Below the pieces are notes generated by a model that saw only the letters and a list, made by a program, of their open reading frames with translations, ran no database searches and was not told where the DNA came from. A program made the translations under genes and the position numbers. Shown one piece after another: positions 6,359 to 54,264 of a stretch of 64,000 bases of DNA. How positions within the stretch are numbered: position 1 is the first letter of the stretch; every line of letters starts with the position of its first letter. This DNA comes from Polynucleobacter sp. AP-Reno-20A-A9 (GTDB lineage Bacteria; Pseudomonadota; Gammaproteobacteria; Burkholderiales; Burkholderiaceae): contig NZ_JACVPB010000004.1 in NCBI RefSeq assembly GCF_018882085.1, positions 124,001 to 188,000 on the forward strand, given 5' to 3'.

Positions 6359-7551
6359 TATTTGCCCTCCTTCTTGGTAGCATTCATTAGCTCCACAAAA
6401 CGATCAAATAAATAAGCAATGTCATGAGGGCCTGGTGAGGCCTCAGGATGCCCTTGGAAACAAAGTGCTGGCTTGTCATTCCATGCCAAACCCTGCAAGG
6501 ATCCATCAAATAAAGACACGTGGGTTACGCGAATATTGCTTGGTAATGTATTGGCATCAACTGCAAAACCATGGTTCTGAGAGGTAATGGCAACGCGGCC
6601 TGTATCTAAATCTTTCACAGGATGATTGGCGCCATGGTGACCGAACTTCATCTTCAATGTCTTGGCACCAGCCGCAAGGCCCATGATTTGTTGGCCTAAA
6701 CAGATACCAAAGGTTGGAACACCTTTTTCAATAATTTCTTTAGCGGCAGCGATAGCGTAGTCACATGGACCAGGATCGCCAGGACCATTTGAGAAGAACA
6801 CGCCATCAGGGTTCATAGCCAGAACTTCTGCTGCGCTAGTTTGTGCCGGCACCACGGTTAATTGACAGCCACGCTCAGTCAGCATACGCAAAATATTGCG
6901 TTTCACACCGAGGTCATAAGCAACTACTTTTTTAACCGGCTTGCTGGTGTCTAGTGATCTGTAAGCAGGCTTACCGTTTGGTCCATGGAGATCCCACTCA
7001 GCTTCACGCCACTCATATGCTTTCTTAGTGGTAACCACCTTAGCAAGATCTAAGCCTGACATGCCAGGGAAAGCTTTAGCAAGTTCAAGCGCCTTCGTGC
7101 CTAAAGCTTCATAGCTATCGCCAACTTTGCCAGCAACAATTGCACCCGATTGGGCACCCTTGTCACGCAGAATTCTGGTGAGCTTGCGTGTATCTATACC
7201 AGCAATCCCCAAGATACCGGCTTTAGTGAGGTAGTCATCTAAAGAACCTTCTGAGCGAAAATTAGATACACGCTTTGGCAGGTCTTTGATAACCAGGCCA
7301 GCAGCATGAATTTGATCCGATTCCGCATCTTGGGCATTAACACCCACATTACCGATATGAGGATAGGTCAATGTAACAATTTGACGGGAGTAACTGGGAT
7401 CAGTAATGATCTCTTGATATCCAGTTAATGCAGTATTAAATACGACTTCGCCAGTAGTTTCGCCAGGGGCGCCAATGCTAAAACCGGGAAATATTGTGCC
7501 GTCGGCTAAGGCCAACACGGCTGGGGGAAAAGAAGGAAGCAAGGGTGACAA
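6358..7551 (-). CDS. carA: Carbamoyl-phosphate synthase small (glutaminase) subunit
   Basis: CarA hydrolyses glutamine and channels ammonia to CarB. The N-terminal domain (1 to about 150) is followed by a class I glutamine amidotransferase domain with nucleophile C284 in GICLGQQ and the H368/E370 partners in FQGHPEAS. The 397-residue length is slightly long because I start at the TTG at 7551, which has GGAG about 5 bases upstream; an in-frame TTG at 7542 lacks a well-placed ribosome binding site. It is the first gene of the carA-carB(-greA-DUF4149) run. Confidence 0.97.
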
Positions 7552-7592
7552 ACCATCTCCAGTCCCTGCTCCATCCGACGCTCAAAACCCCC

Positions 7593-7680
7593 AAAAAAGA
7601 CTAGCCCGGGGATGTTTTTGCGGGTGGTGAGTGTCTTTAAGCGCTAGGGTATTTATTAAGTTTCGAACCCTGTAATCATA
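7593..7680 (-). promoter_or_regulatory. Candidate carA promoter and leader structure
   Basis: The 5' region of carA has a good -10 hexamer TATGAT (minus strand, 7675-7680) but no convincing -35. Downstream, CTAGC (7643-7647) can pair with GCTAG (7601-7605), and the second arm is followed by TCTTTTTT. That geometry would fit a weak attenuator, but the stem is only 5 bases with a long loop, so this is tentative. Confidence 0.2.
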
Positions 7681-7733
7681 ACATTTTTGCTCGTAAACCC
7701 TTGGATTTGCGGCCGAATAGGGGCTGGAGGGTA

Positions 7734-7789
7734 AAAAACTCCCCTAGCCTAATGGCTTGAGGAGCAATTTATCCAAAATTGGGAGTTTT
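7734..7789 (-). terminator. Intrinsic terminator of prpE
   Basis: On the minus strand AAAACTCC pairs with GGAGTTTT, enclosing a second small hairpin (AGCC-ATTA-GGCT), and the structure ends in a run of T. It begins at the prpE stop codon and separates prpE from carA. Confidence 0.75.
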
Positions 7790-46730: not shown

Positions 46731-47327
46731 ATGTCCTCACTATATCGCCCACTGATTACTTTTCTCTGCCTCGGATTTGGACTTTTCCAACCGGCCTATG
46801 CCCAATTTGGATCCTTTTTTGGGCAAGATAAAACGATTGCTGAGCAACGCCAAGACGTTTTGATTAAAAGCCAGGCAATTCTGAAACAACTTTATGAGGC
46901 GCAGCCAAAAGCGAAGGAGCTCATTGAAAAGTCAGTTGGCTATGCGACCTTCAGCAACTTCGGCATGAAAATTCTGATTGCAGGAGGTGGTAGTGGTAGT
47001 GGCGTTGTGATCAATAAAGCAAACAAAAAACCCATCTACATGAATATGGCTGAGGTTCAGGCTGGCCTGGGTCTTGGAATTAAGTCATTTCAGAACATTT
47101 TTGTCTTTGAAACTGAAGCAGCCATGAATGACTTTATTAATTCAGGCTGGACTTTTGGCGGCCAAGTCACTGCCGCTGCAAAATATGAAAAAGATGGCGG
47201 CGCGTACCAAGATGCAACCGTGGTTGCTCCTGGAGTTTTAATGTATCAACTGACAGACTCCGGCCTAGCCGCTGAAATCACCGGCAAAGGCACCAAGTAC
47301 TATAAAAATACTGACTTGAATAAGTAA
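46731..47327 (+). CDS. SYLF/YSC84-domain protein, predicted secreted
   Basis: A 198-residue protein with an N-terminal signal peptide (cleavage near AYAQ). The SYLF (YSC84/DUF500) domain covers most of the rest, with the typical KSVGYATFSNFGMKILIAGGGSGSG opening (from about residue 67), YMNMAEVQAGLGLG and FGGQVTAAAKY. Eukaryotic SYLF domains bind phosphoinositides; the bacterial role is unknown, with a periplasmic or outer-membrane site inferred from the signal. No Shine-Dalgarno sequence is evident. It converges on leuA. Confidence 0.88.
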   Translation: MSSLYRPLITFLCLGFGLFQPAYAQFGSFFGQDKTIAEQRQDVLIKSQAILKQLYEAQPKAKELIEKSVGYATFSNFGMKILIAGGGSGSGVVINKANKKPIYMNMAEVQAGLGLGIKSFQNIFVFETEAAMNDFINSGWTFGGQVTAAAKYEKDGGAYQDATVVAPGVLMYQLTDSGLAAEITGKGTKYYKNTDLNK

Positions 47328-47336
47328 ATCTCTTTG

Positions 47337-47366
47337 CAGATGACCCAATAATTAAGGAGTCATCTG
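47337..47366. terminator. Hairpin between convergent SYLF gene and leuA
   Basis: An 8-base inverted repeat CAGATGAC / GTCATCTG with a 14-base loop spans the leuA stop codon. No T-run follows on either strand, so it may protect 3' ends or act as a weak bidirectional terminator. Confidence 0.35.
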
Positions 47367-48899
47367 TGCATTGAGCTTAGCCTGGCTCGGATCATGCAAC
47401 TTATTTAAAGCAGATAAATAAGCTTTTGCTGAAGCGGCAATGATGTCTGGGTCAGTACCCACGCCATTCACAATACGACCGCCTTTTGCCAAGCGTACAG
47501 TAACCTCACCTTGAGATTGCGTTCCCGAGGTAATGGCATTGACTGAGTAGAGCAACTGCTCCGCCCCACTCTTGGCAATTTCTTCAATCGCATTCAAGCT
47601 CGCATCTACCGGGCCATTACCCTCCGCCTCTGAACTCATCTCCTTATCGCCCATGCGGAATGTCACGCGAGATTTGGGACGCTCACCAGTTTCAGAATGC
47701 TGACTTAAAGAAATAAATTTATAGTGCTCACCCTCTTCTGCTGCAGCAGAATCAGACATGATGGCAATAATATCTTCATCAAAAATCTCAGACTTTTGGT
47801 CAGCTAACGCTTTAAATCTAGTGAAGGCTTCGTTTAAATCAGCCTCAGCTTCAACAGTGATGCCTAATTCTTGCAAGCGCTGTTTAAAGGCATTGCGGCC
47901 AGATAATTTACCCAAAACAATCTTATTGGCAGACCAGCCCACATCTTCAGCCCGCATGATTTCATAGGTGTCGCGGTTCTTCAAAATACCATCTTGATGA
48001 ATGCCTGAGGTATGTGCAAAGGCATTAGCGCCAACAACCGCTTTGTTAGGCTGAACTACAAAGCCTGTGATCTGAGAGACTAATTTGGAAGCGGGAACAA
48101 TTTGCGTTGCATCAATGCCGCACACCAAATCGAAATAGTCTTTGCGAGTGCGCAAAGCCATCACAATCTCTTCCAAAGCGGTATTGCCTGCACGCTCGCC
48201 TAAGCCATTAATGGTGCATTCAATTTGACGTGCTCCACCAATCTTCACACCTGCCAAGGAATTGGCAACAGCCATACCTAAGTCGTTATGACAATGCACT
48301 GACCATACCGCTTTATCAGAGTTGGGAACACGAGTTCGCAAGGTTTTAATGAACTCGCCATACAACTCAGGGGTTGCATAACCAACGGTATCGGGGATAT
48401 TAATAGTAGAGGCACCTTCATTAATAACCGCCTCAACTACTCTGCATAAGAAATCCATTTCTGAGCGATAACCATCTTCAGCGGAAAACTCAATATCTTC
48501 AGCTAAGTTACGCGCAAAACGGATGGAGCGTTTAGCCTGCTCCAAAACTTCTTCTGGAGACATGCGTAATTTCACGGCCATATGCAATGGACTTGTCGCC
48601 AAGAATGCATGAATACGTTTGGCGTTTGCCGCTTGTAAAGCATCGGCCGCTCGCGTGATGTCTTTGTCATTCGCCCTGGCTAATGAGCAAATAATAGAAT
48701 CCTTAACGGCAGCAGCAACTGCAGATATTGCTTGGAAGTCGCCTTCAGAGCTGGCGGCAAAACCCGCCTCGATAACATCCACCTTAAGACGCTCTAACTG
48801 ACGCGCAATGCGTACTTTTTCGTCTTTAGTCATGGATGCACCAGGCGATTGTTCGCCATCACGCAAGGTGGTGTCAAAAATGATTACTTTGTCGCTCAT
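47352..48899 (-). CDS. leuA: 2-isopropylmalate synthase
   Basis: LeuA condenses acetyl-CoA with 2-oxoisovalerate in the first committed step of leucine synthesis. The 515-residue protein has the HMGL-like barrel with [15 protein letters not shown] at the N-terminus, metal-binding HCHND near residue 203, and a C-terminal LeuA dimer/regulatory domain that binds leucine as feedback inhibitor. I use the ATG at 48899 (GGAG 7 bases upstream) rather than a GTG one codon earlier. It is preceded by a leader peptide and terminator, described separately, and is last in the ilvB-H-C-psd-pssA-leuA series. Confidence 0.97.
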
Positions 48900-48955
48900 C
48901 ACTACTCTCCGGTTTTAAATACTTCTGAACTGCTTCAGACAACTCAATCTTATAT

Positions 48956-48983
48956 AAACAAAAACCCCAGCAATTAGCTGGGG
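48956..48983 (-). terminator. Attenuator terminator upstream of leuA
   Basis: On the minus strand CCCCAGC pairs perfectly with GCTGGGG around a TAATT loop, followed directly by TTTTTGTTT. It ends 56 bases before the leuA ATG, so it must be bypassed for leuA expression. Confidence 0.9.
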
Positions 48984-49046
48984 CTGGTATGTGGTGGCTA
49001 ATGAATCTTCTTTATCTCATTAACTCAGGCCTTACCCGCCCCAAGC
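48977..49046 (-). promoter_or_regulatory. Leucine attenuator: alternative antiterminator pairing
   Basis: GCTTGGGGC (minus strand, 49046-49038, inside codons 19-22 of the leader ORF) can pair with GCCCCAGC (48984-48977), the 5' arm of the terminator, leaving one bulged base. This would block the terminator. An earlier segment containing GGCCT in leader codons 10-11 can pair with AGGCC near the leader stop, sequestering the antiterminator strand. This gives the 1:2, 2:3 and 3:4 alternatives of classic ribosome-mediated attenuation. Stability was judged by eye only. Confidence 0.75.
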
Positions 49047-49102
49047 TTTAGGCTTAGTGCTAGCAGAAGGAGGCCAGTTAAAGGTGAGAAATTCATCAAC
49101 AT
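49025..49102 (-). CDS. leuL: Leucine-rich leader peptide of leuA
   Basis: A 25-codon ORF (ATG at 49102, TGA at 49025) beginning MLMNFSP. Nine of the 25 codons are leucine (positions 2, 8, 11-14, 16, 18 and 20). Codons 11-14 are four consecutive, all-different leucine codons CTC CTT CTG CTA. It lies between pssA and leuA on their strand, 41 bases before the attenuator terminator. Ribosome stalling here under leucine limitation would favour the antiterminator. No Shine-Dalgarno sequence is well placed (GGAG is 12 bases away); TATATT lies 6 bases upstream, allowing a leaderless start. The gene symbol follows the function, not homology. Confidence 0.8.
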   Translation of the reverse strand: MLMNFSPLTGLLLLALSLKLGAGKA

Positions 49103-49130
49103 AGAATTAATATACTCCAAAAATGGCAGA

Positions 49131-49994
49131 TTAGCTAAAACGCTTGCCGCTCAGTCTTTCCCAAGCCCAGATTACATAGCCAGAGATGGAGTACACCACG
49201 AATAAACCAAATAGGGTTAAGGGCGGGTTAGAGGAGATTAAGACAAAGGTCAAGATCATTAAAACCATCACGCCAAACGGCACTCGATAACGGACATCCA
49301 AAGCCTTCCCACTGTAAAAGCGGGCATTTGAGACCATGGTGAGTCCAGCATAGACGGCAATAAAGAAGGTGACCCAAGGGATAGCTGTATCGCGAACCGG
49401 AATCTTATTGTCATCTGCCAACCAAATAAAGCCAGCCATTAAAGCACCTGCAGCAGGACTCGGAAGGCCTTGAAAAAACTTCTTGTCTACTATCCCAGTA
49501 TTTACGTTAAAGCGGGCCAAACGCAAGGCAGCACCAGCACAATAAGTAAAGGCTGCTAGCCAGCCCCACTTACCCAAATCTTTTAAAGCCCACTCATAAG
49601 CTACCAATGCAGGCGCAACCCCAAATGAGACCATATCAGCAAGAGAATCGTATTGCTCGCCAAACGCGCTCTGAGTATTGGTCATACGCGCCACACGGCC
49701 GTCCATACCGTCAAGAACCATTGAGGCAAAAATCGCAATTGCTGCAATCTCGAACTGATGGTTCATTGCGTTAACAATGGCATAGAAGCCGCAAAATAAA
49801 GCGGCTGTTGTAAAAGCGTTTGGAAGAAGGTAAATACCCTTGCTACGCAAGCGGGGCTTTTCTGGATGCAGCTCTTCTACTTCGTAATCAATACCATCAC
49901 CCAAGTCTTCAGCCCACTGATTTTCTGAAGAGATTGTCCGTCTGCTCGAGAGACGGCTTCGGTCGATACGACCGCGACGGCGAAATGTAGTCAA
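49131..49994 (-). CDS. pssA: CDP-diacylglycerol--serine O-phosphatidyltransferase
   Basis: Makes phosphatidylserine from CDP-diacylglycerol and serine in the membrane. The CDP-alcohol phosphotransferase motif DG-x2-AR-x8-G-x3-D-x3-D reads as DGMDGRVAR...GEQYDSLAD at about residues 95-120, and about six to eight hydrophobic helices follow. I choose the TTG at 49994 (AGGA 6 bases upstream), giving 287 residues and placing the gene 28 bases after psd; the longer frame overlapping psd by 59 bases is unlikely. The first 40 residues are Arg-rich. Confidence 0.92.
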   Translation of the reverse strand: MTTFRRRGRIDRSRLSSRRTISSENQWAEDLGDGIDYEVEELHPEKPRLRSKGIYLLPNAFTTAALFCGFYAIVNAMNHQFEIAAIAIFASMVLDGMDGRVARMTNTQSAFGEQYDSLADMVSFGVAPALVAYEWALKDLGKWGWLAAFTYCAGAALRLARFNVNTGIVDKKFFQGLPSPAAGALMAGFIWLADDNKIPVRDTAIPWVTFFIAVYAGLTMVSNARFYSGKALDVRYRVPFGVMVLMILTFVLISSNPPLTLFGLFVVYSISGYVIWAWERLSGKRFS

Positions 49995-50022
49995 AAAATA
50001 TCCTAGTGAATAAAATTTCGAA

Positions 50023-50670
50023 TCAATCCAAACCAGGCAAACGCGCCAAGGCTGTATTTGTTGCAAATACTTTATCGCCAACGCTCACCAGAGGTTCTGC
50101 GGTCAATGGTAAATAGACATCCACCCTCGAACCAAAACGAATAAATCCATAGCGCTCTCCCGCTTTAAGGCGATCACCAACATGGATGTAGCAAAGAATA
50201 CGGCGGGCAATTAAACCGGCGACCTGCACCAAAGTAACCACCTGACCATTCGCATCAATTACAACGGCATTACGCTCGTTCTCGGTAGATGCCTTATCTA
50301 AATCTGCATTCACAAACTTACCAGGGAAGTATTGAATCTCCTTCACCAAGCCATTTACAGCACTACGGTTAGAGTGCACATTAAATACATTCATGAATAC
50401 GCTGATTTTGAGTGCTTCACGACCAGCATACGGATCATTAGCTTTTTCTACAACAACGATGCGACCATCTGCCGGGGATAAAACCAAATCGCGCCCCATA
50501 GCAGGAATGCGCTGTGGGTCACGAAAGAACTGCAGAACAAAGAAAAAAATGATCCAAAGAGGCCATGACCAGGCTATGCCGCCTAGATAGTGAACCAGCA
50601 AAGTCACCGCCCCCACTAACGCTAAATACGGCCAACCTTCTTTCGCAATAATGGGGTGTGGATACATCAT
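50023..50670 (-). CDS. psd: Phosphatidylserine decarboxylase proenzyme
   Basis: A 215-residue short-type PSD that decarboxylates phosphatidylserine to phosphatidylethanolamine. The self-cleavage site generating the pyruvoyl cofactor is G180-S181 in [11 protein letters not shown]. Two hydrophobic segments near residues 16-48 anchor it in the membrane. HSNRSAVNG, with its His, and the SPADGRIVV segment are conserved. It directly precedes pssA, placing consecutive steps of PE synthesis together, and follows ilvC by 53 bases. Confidence 0.95.
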
Positions 50671-54071: not shown

Positions 54072-54207
54072 TTTCTTTCGTCCTTTGCAATTTTCGGCAA
54101 AAAATTGTTTGGTCTGTTCTATCCCTTGCTTTTGGCCTGAGTTCGAACGGCGCTGCTACCGGAAAAAACCACTTCTTGAATGAGATTCTAGGTAGTAAGC
54201 CCTACAT

Positions 54208-54235
54208 TCTATAACAATCCCCTAAAATGGCTGAA
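54208..54235 (-). promoter_or_regulatory. Candidate ilvB promoter
   Basis: On the minus strand TTCAGC (54235-54230) and TATAGA (54213-54208, extended as TATAGAAT) are 16 bases apart. This predicts a leader of about 130 bases before ilvB. No leucine/valine/isoleucine-rich leader ORF was found in that leader; only a weak CTACC/GGTAG pairing is visible. Confidence 0.4.
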
Positions 54236-54264
54236 TTCTTACAGATTCAGGTCTAATCCATTGC

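Follow-up and report, generated by a model that had tools for sequence, protein, structure and literature searches.

The window analysed here is a stretch of 64,000 nucleotides from Polynucleobacter sp. AP-Reno-20A-A9, and all coordinates refer to it. On its reverse strand lies leuA (47352-48902; NF002087 and TIGR00973 above cut-off), encoding 2-isopropylmalate synthase, which is listed from a GTG at 48902 followed directly by an ATG codon (48899). The upstream neighbour on the same strand is pssA (49131-50081; TIGR00473 above cut-off), with its stop codon at 49133-49131. The identities of leuA, pssA, psd, ilvC and the genes for the small and large subunits of acetolactate synthase were checked against NCBIfam. 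The gene beyond leuA (46731-47327, forward strand) is convergent to it, so an element placed before leuA should control this gene only, which fits the proposal of an earlier note on this DNA that leuA alone is regulated here. By eye, no branched-chain-rich leader ORF was seen at 54072-54260 (reverse strand), before the acetolactate synthase gene, unlike before leuA of the same cluster. Elsewhere in the window, a carA motif RNA (RF04192, 194.5 bits) occupies 7543-7743 on the reverse strand; this motif was first found in Polynucleobacter necessarius, as described in PMC8632094.

Between pssA and leuA, we found a leader ORF of 25 sense codons (MLMNFSPLTGLLLLALSLKLGAGKA; 49025-49102, reverse strand) that runs from an ATG at 49102-49100, 28 nt after the pssA stop codon, to a TGA at 49027-49025, the ORF list starting it from an upstream TTG. 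It contains nine leucine codons (TTG2, TTA8, CTC11, CTT12, CTG13, CTA14, CTA16, CTA18 and CTT20), of which CTC CTT CTG CTA are consecutive (49072-49061), in agreement with the earlier reading of the sequence. This tetrapeptide stretch, LLLL, would provide the control codons, and ribosome-mediated amino-acid attenuators likewise have a short ORF enriched in codons for the pathway's end product.

The 7-base perfect hairpin with a T-run claimed for the region just before leuA is also present at 48983-48957, in the form CCCCAGC-TAATT-GCTGGGG-T5, with 48983-48977 pairing with 48971-48965 around the TAATT loop, followed by TTTTTGTTT. In the RNA, this predicted intrinsic terminator (48956-48985, reverse strand) has the stem CCCCAGC/GCUGGGG, the loop UAAUU and then UUUUUGUUU, and it stands ahead of the structural gene, as in known attenuators. 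Three terminator-like sites were detected in 48700-49400, compared to 0.8 expected in shuffles; the leader site is the richest in pairs (9, the other two having 5), and the scan alone is only suggestive. Folding of the leader region, which the earlier note had proposed as a check, gave z = -3.94 for 48950-49120, better than all 200 dinucleotide shuffles. The long hairpin of the single-sequence minimum-energy fold, joining the 5' part of the ORF with the post-stop region, was not adopted, as the partner looks absent, by eye, from some divergent members.

A DNA search matched 162 of the 186 genomes of the genus. We assembled 151 genus loci, i.e. the window's own, 29 returned by the DNA search, 21 with a LeuA identity of at least 80% (some of them titled only Burkholderiaceae or beta MAGs) and 100 that were fetched; the closest LeuA proteins among the named loci were from Polynucleobacter, with 98-97% identity. 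After removal of 18 duplicate upstream regions, 133 distinct loci were left, and every one of them carries a leucine-rich ORF (6-11 Leu) and the terminator. As most of these loci had been chosen by a DNA match, 20 of the 24 unmatched genomes were searched as well. Ten of them contain leuA (protein search, E 1e-100) and no leuA was found at this threshold in the other ten, nine of which are less than 90% complete. With L349 left out for lack of upstream DNA, the nine readable loci of these genomes all exhibit the box described below, an ATG, a leucine-rich ORF and then a hairpin with a T-run.

The four LLLL positions are leucine in 115, 129, 128 and 128 of the 133 genus loci, while their third bases vary. 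At seven leucine positions (-15, -14, -13, -12, -10, -8 and -6, counted back from the stop), 321 codons are other than the majority one, and leucine is retained in 270 of them, compared to about 40% expected of random single changes. The rare codon CTA makes up 382 of 1183 leucine codons in the leaders (32%) and 8.1% of 1285 in window ORFs of at least 900 nt, and is thus 4-fold commoner in the leaders; rare CTA codons are used in the enteric leu leader. This constraint at the codon level suggests that the leader is translated. The N-terminal half of the peptide drifts among the genus loci and the C-terminal LGAGKA is highly conserved. Within the latter, the codons GGG (129/133) and GGT (125/133) are nearly invariant in every base, and the codon between them is GCG in 97 and GCA in 27 loci, its variable third base (49037) being the sole unpaired position there, as expected of an antiterminator arm. 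In 11 of the 133 leaders, which otherwise differ (L017, L025, L036, L037, L111, L133, L139, L159, L176, L178 and L184), P/A-S-G/R-K, mostly PSGK, precedes the last three leucines of the run, perhaps through a shared origin with exchange or through repeated insertion.

We then consider the pairings that would compete with the terminator. RNAalifold, applied to 27 representative sequences, gave the terminator together with a helix 1:2, but without 2:3, whose arms are common to both. The terminator stem is paired in 189 of 189 cells. Helix 1:2 joins the putative protector arm, segment 1 (CUAGCACUAAG, 49053-49063, reverse strand), with CUUGGGGCGGG of segment 2 and is paired in 96.3% of cells, compared to at most 59.3% for slid versions; four of its pairs present two-sided changes and its covariation score is 0.202 against 0.133 in shuffles, none of 500 reaching it. 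Segment 2 (AGCUUGGGGCGGGUA, 49033-49047) lies within the leader ORF and would form the 5' arm of the antiterminator, and segment 3 (UACCAGCCCCAGCU, 48976-48989) both its 3' arm and the 5' arm of the terminator. Enclosed by the antiterminator and past the stop codon, a small inner hairpin, GUUAAUGA...UCAUUAGC (48997-49024), is paired in 85.2% of cells, with two-sided changes in two pairs.

The alternative pairing proposed in the earlier note, GCTTGGGGC with GCCCCAGC, exists and is extendable to AGC(U)UGGGGC-G-GGUA with UACC-A-GCCCCAGCU. Written out by script and then counted, the antiterminator, 2:3 together with the inner hairpin, has 85.6% of its cells paired, compared to at most 47.3% in slid versions. 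Its two-sided changes are few (5 pairs, a number reached by 45 of 500 shuffles and exceeded by slid versions, which reach 6), the alignment being poor around it in divergent members. By eye, both arms are changed together in L049-L051, which have CUGGGGU with ACCCCAG instead. The relatives thus bear out the expected conservation of leucine codons and alternative stems, but compensatory changes within this pairing are few. An antiterminator that uses the 5' arm of the terminator, so that the two exclude each other, is therefore conserved and predicted to form, with weak two-sided covariation.

A -10-like box, TATATT (49109-49114, reverse strand), ends 6 nt before the leader ATG and occupies the place of a Shine-Dalgarno sequence. 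Taking by script the hexamer most like TATAAT among those 4-10 nt before the ATG, we found TATATT in 108, TATAGT in 24 and TATGAT in 1 of the 133 genus loci. The spacing is 6 nt in 129 loci, whereas three loci have 7 nt and one has 9 nt. TATA[TG]T-N6-ATG occurs a single time in the window, both strands considered, and none of the 54 ATG-first window ORFs of at least 150 codons has TATA[TG]T 5-8 nt upstream. Shine-Dalgarno-like 4-mers precede 10 of 133 leaders versus 18 of the 54 long window ORFs. A strict rule, which demands TAnAnT 5-9 nt before an ATG that opens an ORF with at least 4 Leu and 15% Leu, is passed by 132 of 133 genus regions, by no antisense strand and by a mean of 2.65 (maximum 6) in shuffles. 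By eye, the -35 region is weak, and a consensus promoter scan of 48700-49400 gave no site before the leader, the sole sigma-70-like match lying inside leuA (48877-48848). Given the usual spacing, 6 nt between a -10 box and a start codon makes the A of the ATG the first transcribed base. The start is accordingly predicted at the A of the leader ATG (49102) or its neighbour, and the leader is probably leaderless, with the -10 box placed for such a start and no Shine-Dalgarno sequence, as in known leaderless leader peptides.

Using a folding model in which the RNA is masked as far as 10 nt past the A-site codon before the remainder is folded, we determined the mean probability of the complete terminator hairpin over the 133 loci. 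Without a ribosome it is 0.95. When the A site is one of the last nine positions, stop included, it is 1.00; codons -16 to -25 give 0.90-0.95, and the minimum, 0.63-0.78, falls at codons -11 to -15, i.e. the conserved LLLL and the next Ala. For the window's own leader, the probability is 0.62, 0.69, 0.93 and 0.38 at Leu11, Leu12, Leu13 and Leu14, 0.50 at Ala15, and 0.94-1.00 at all other codons; Leu16, Leu18 and Leu20 are past the switching point, and a stall there is modelled to terminate. A stall at the control codons and not at the stop thus favours the antiterminator in the model, by an equilibrium shift that is rightly placed but partial. As the terminator stays at 0.63-0.78 at the control codons (0.93 at Leu13), real switching would have to lean on co-transcriptional kinetics.

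When the modelled transcript was cut before the 3' arm of the terminator, the probability that segment 3 is held upstream was 0.97 for an A site at -11 to -13, where codon-order shuffles gave 0.44-0.47, and about 0.2 between -5 and the stop. Segment 3 is also held at A sites upstream of the Leu run (0.93-0.96) and without a ribosome (0.83), so that, taken by itself, this model distinguishes the Leu run from the stop but not from codons further upstream. At this stage of the modelled transcript the protector is not dominant, and the 0.83 without a ribosome is not predicted by a simple protector model.

Taken together, these data support the hypothesis of a transcription attenuator that senses charged leucyl-tRNA through the ribosome and controls leuA only, to which we assign a probability of roughly 0.84. 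The RNA polymerase would start at the first base of the leader ATG or beside it, and with such a start the ribosome would load on the bare 5' end. When leucyl-tRNA is plentiful, the ribosome would pass LLLL to the stop codon and cover segment 2, leaving segment 3 free for the terminator, and transcription would end near 48960. When leucyl-tRNA is short, the ribosome would stall on CTC CTT CTG CTA and cover the protector segment 1, so that 2:3 could pair, the terminator would be disfavoured and leuA would be transcribed. In the absence of translation, the completed hairpin should prevail, with termination as the predicted outcome. The mechanism would be classical ribosome-mediated attenuation, and the leucine attenuation reading of the earlier note is strengthened by the conserved leucine codons and stems in relatives and by the similar logic in other groups described below. 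The leaderless appearance, the protector hairpin 1:2 and an arrangement not restricted to this lineage are new beyond that first reading.

The same attenuator could instead be carried by a longer transcript, arising from its own promoter further upstream or by read-through from pssA, with ordinary or reinitiating translation of the leader. The 28-nt gap after the pssA stop codon, in which the scan found no terminator, makes co-transcription of pssA and leader plausible, and the weak -35 region and the promoter scan point the same way. Against this stand the nearly fixed 6-nt spacing of the -10-like box in the Shine-Dalgarno place, the spacings in 108 of the 115 non-genus regions passing the strict rule, which fall within 6-8 nt, and the scarcity of Shine-Dalgarno-like sequences, and we regard a longer transcript as unlikely. 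The claim that leuA is regulated separately from the ilv-psd-pssA genes therefore holds in part: the conserved box directly before the leader ATG favours it, but read-through from pssA could still occur. A strong terminator standing shortly after pssA could also simply close the ilv-psd-pssA operon, the leuA promoter lying after it and the leader ORF being incidental. This is highly improbable, considering that the leucine codons are kept as codons, that the ORF holds a conserved arm competing with the terminator, and that the sole sigma-70-like match lies inside leuA.

The peptide or the terminated leader RNA might act in trans, besides or instead of in cis. Termination would release a short leaderless RNA of about 145 nt, conservation is high in the C-terminal LGAGKA, and peTrpL/rnTrpL of Sinorhizobium meliloti offers a precedent (PMC7298713); the N-terminal half of the peptide, however, drifts, and RNA pairing accounts for the conservation of LGAG, since the third bases of GGG and GGT are conserved as well, which makes action in trans quite improbable. 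A structured 5' region with a terminator would equally suit a metabolite riboswitch or a tRNA-binding element (T-box) in place of a translated leader. This is scarcely credible, as leucine is conserved at the codon level and Rfam gave no match to a known family at the gathering score in the leader region, T-boxes and riboswitches included, the four matches seen there having E values of 2.2-7.4 and scores far below the gathering scores. Neither was the Rfam family Leu_leader, which we take to be that of the enteric leu attenuator (leader leuL), matched at the gathering score or up to E = 10 in 48800-49250. The attenuator that senses charged leucyl-tRNA is thus the reading that we retain.

Judged by titles and the start of abstracts, we recognised no description of a leuA leader in Betaproteobacteria in the literature; an earlier description is possible, and Vitreschak et al. 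2004 reportedly treated attenuation in proteobacteria. The main text of PMC8632094, which reports RNA motifs found in Polynucleobacter, contains neither 'leuA' nor 'leucine', and that of a premature-terminator survey (PMC2965389) does not contain 'leucine' and names Burkholderia once, for a transposon family. The leader of Escherichia coli leuABCD is described as having 28 amino acids and 4 Leu (PMC6123439). Like the leu attenuator of E. coli and Salmonella, the element presented here combines a leucine-containing leader peptide, a terminator and a competing antiterminator before leuA; unlike it, a lone leuA would be controlled, instead of leuABCD, and the leader is probably leaderless. The antiterminator arm lies here within the ORF, a possible further difference from the enteric attenuator.

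Leaderless leader peptides before leuA are already known from Streptomyces: in Streptomyces lividans, leaderless LeuL peptides are reported before leuS and leuA (PMC8079986), short and leucine-rich as here, where the leaderless start is predicted. LeuL1, by the wording of that report the leuA one, is described as being without a typical intrinsic terminator, unlike the present leader, and belongs to a different phylum. The actinobacterial LEU element, as described in PMC1262725, has a pseudoknot and a base stem pairing the leucine codons with the leuA Shine-Dalgarno sequence, instead of a terminator and antiterminator. The RNA rnTrpL of S. meliloti is reported to start with the leader ATG, followed by a transcription terminator (PMC7298713), which resembles the start predicted here, but it concerns tryptophan and trpE(G), with trans roles reported. 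In mycobacteria, leaderless polycysteine short ORFs act as attenuators, by the title of Canestrari 2020 (cited in PMC13236596); these are likewise leaderless with a run of the sensed amino acid, cysteine there and leucine here. What a specialist might find unexpected is the breadth of the leaderless pattern.

Of 150 genomes sampled across the order, 148 yielded a LeuA, and the upstream DNA of 107 non-genus genomes was taken. A stricter LeuA motif failed in 22 of these 107 loci, all of which were recovered except L229, which was left out for want of the motif, leaving 106 usable regions. The box, the ATG and a leucine-rich ORF stand before leuA in 59 of the 106, from 26 of 45 families, with terminators that differ or with none recognised; the 47 non-passing regions may be true absences or have other start codons or other boxes. 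Over all 190 non-genus upstream regions, 115 pass the strict rule, compared to 1 antisense strand and a mean of 0.7 in shuffles.

Additionally, 43 of the 59 other named loci have a candidate leader by a looser rule, of which at least L074 and L093 look spurious. Many leaders of this group end in ...HGRRQ or ...NGRSW, and 36 of the 43 candidates are followed by a GGCCCG...CGGGCC-like terminator, including records titled Limnohabitans, Acidovorax, Hydrogenophaga, Rubrivivax and Ideonella. In this group, ACGGGC within the ORF and GCCCGU in the arm of the terminator are paired in 88.4% of cells, compared to at most 47.0% when slid, one pair presenting a two-sided change. In the cut-transcript model, these 36 leaders hold segment 3 with a probability of 0.62-0.83 at -8 to -10, 0.19 at the stop and 0.48 without a ribosome. 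Seven family-mates of the window's organism exhibit a third version, CAGGUCGGG with CCCCGGCCUG. In the same model, its values are 0.84-0.99 when the A site is at the first Leu of the final Leu pair, drop to 0.13-0.34 within a few codons and stand at 0.35-0.54 at the stop; they are identical for L338 and L341. These data support the same switch logic in other groups, built from different hairpin sequences. Covariance model R1, made from 36 Comamonadaceae-like leaders, found a match in one genome out of 100 from the window's family under stricter filters, so the Comamonadaceae-like type is not common in this family; further leaders were located by the position of leuA.

Of the 115 passing non-genus leaders, 51 end like LLLRPAR and 14 like LARLPR. 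The 51, found among L223-L312 from other families, have the endings LLLRPAR, LLLRLAR or LLLRVRAH. The 14 LPR-ending leaders, mostly LARLPR, are from the window's family (L221, L328, L333-L337, L339, L340, L342 and L344-L347), and a GCGTCGCC...GGTGGCG-like hairpin recurs by eye downstream of many of them. A crude finder recognised an intrinsic terminator in 2 of the 51 and in none of the 14, counts that are only indicative because this finder under-calls (13 of 43 in the mixed group of named loci, where the explicit pattern gives 36 of 43). The terminator-less LLLRPAR-like leaders are possible Rho-dependent or translational switches. A C-rich, G-poor stretch past the stop looked like a sign of Rho sites, but the composition does not distinguish these leaders from those with terminators: the C/G fractions over 50 nt are 0.36/0.19 in LLLRPAR-like, 0.36/0.28 in LARLPR-like, 0.39/0.23 in the mixed group, mostly with terminators, and 0.27/0.15 in the window's genus.

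A leaderless leucine-rich ORF before leuA may be an ancestral regulator of the betaproteobacterial order, whose downstream switch would have been swapped by lineage and would perhaps be Rho-dependent or translational in some cases. Swapped terminators would concern at least three groups, i.e. the window's genus, the Comamonadaceae-like leaders and some family-mates, many others (with leaders like LLLRPAR or LARLPR) being without a recognised intrinsic terminator. As the post-stop composition is not distinctive, the odds of this reading are lowered, and we put it forward tentatively, as somewhat less than an even chance.

The attenuator proposed here makes the regulation of leucine synthesis in this freshwater genus directly testable. 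It further draws attention to short leucine-rich ORFs in front of leuA across many betaproteobacterial families. The natural series in which a similar sensor ORF is joined to different terminators could help to address the evolution of attenuators, and also the question of how a ribosome loading on a bare 5' end keeps up with RNA polymerase.
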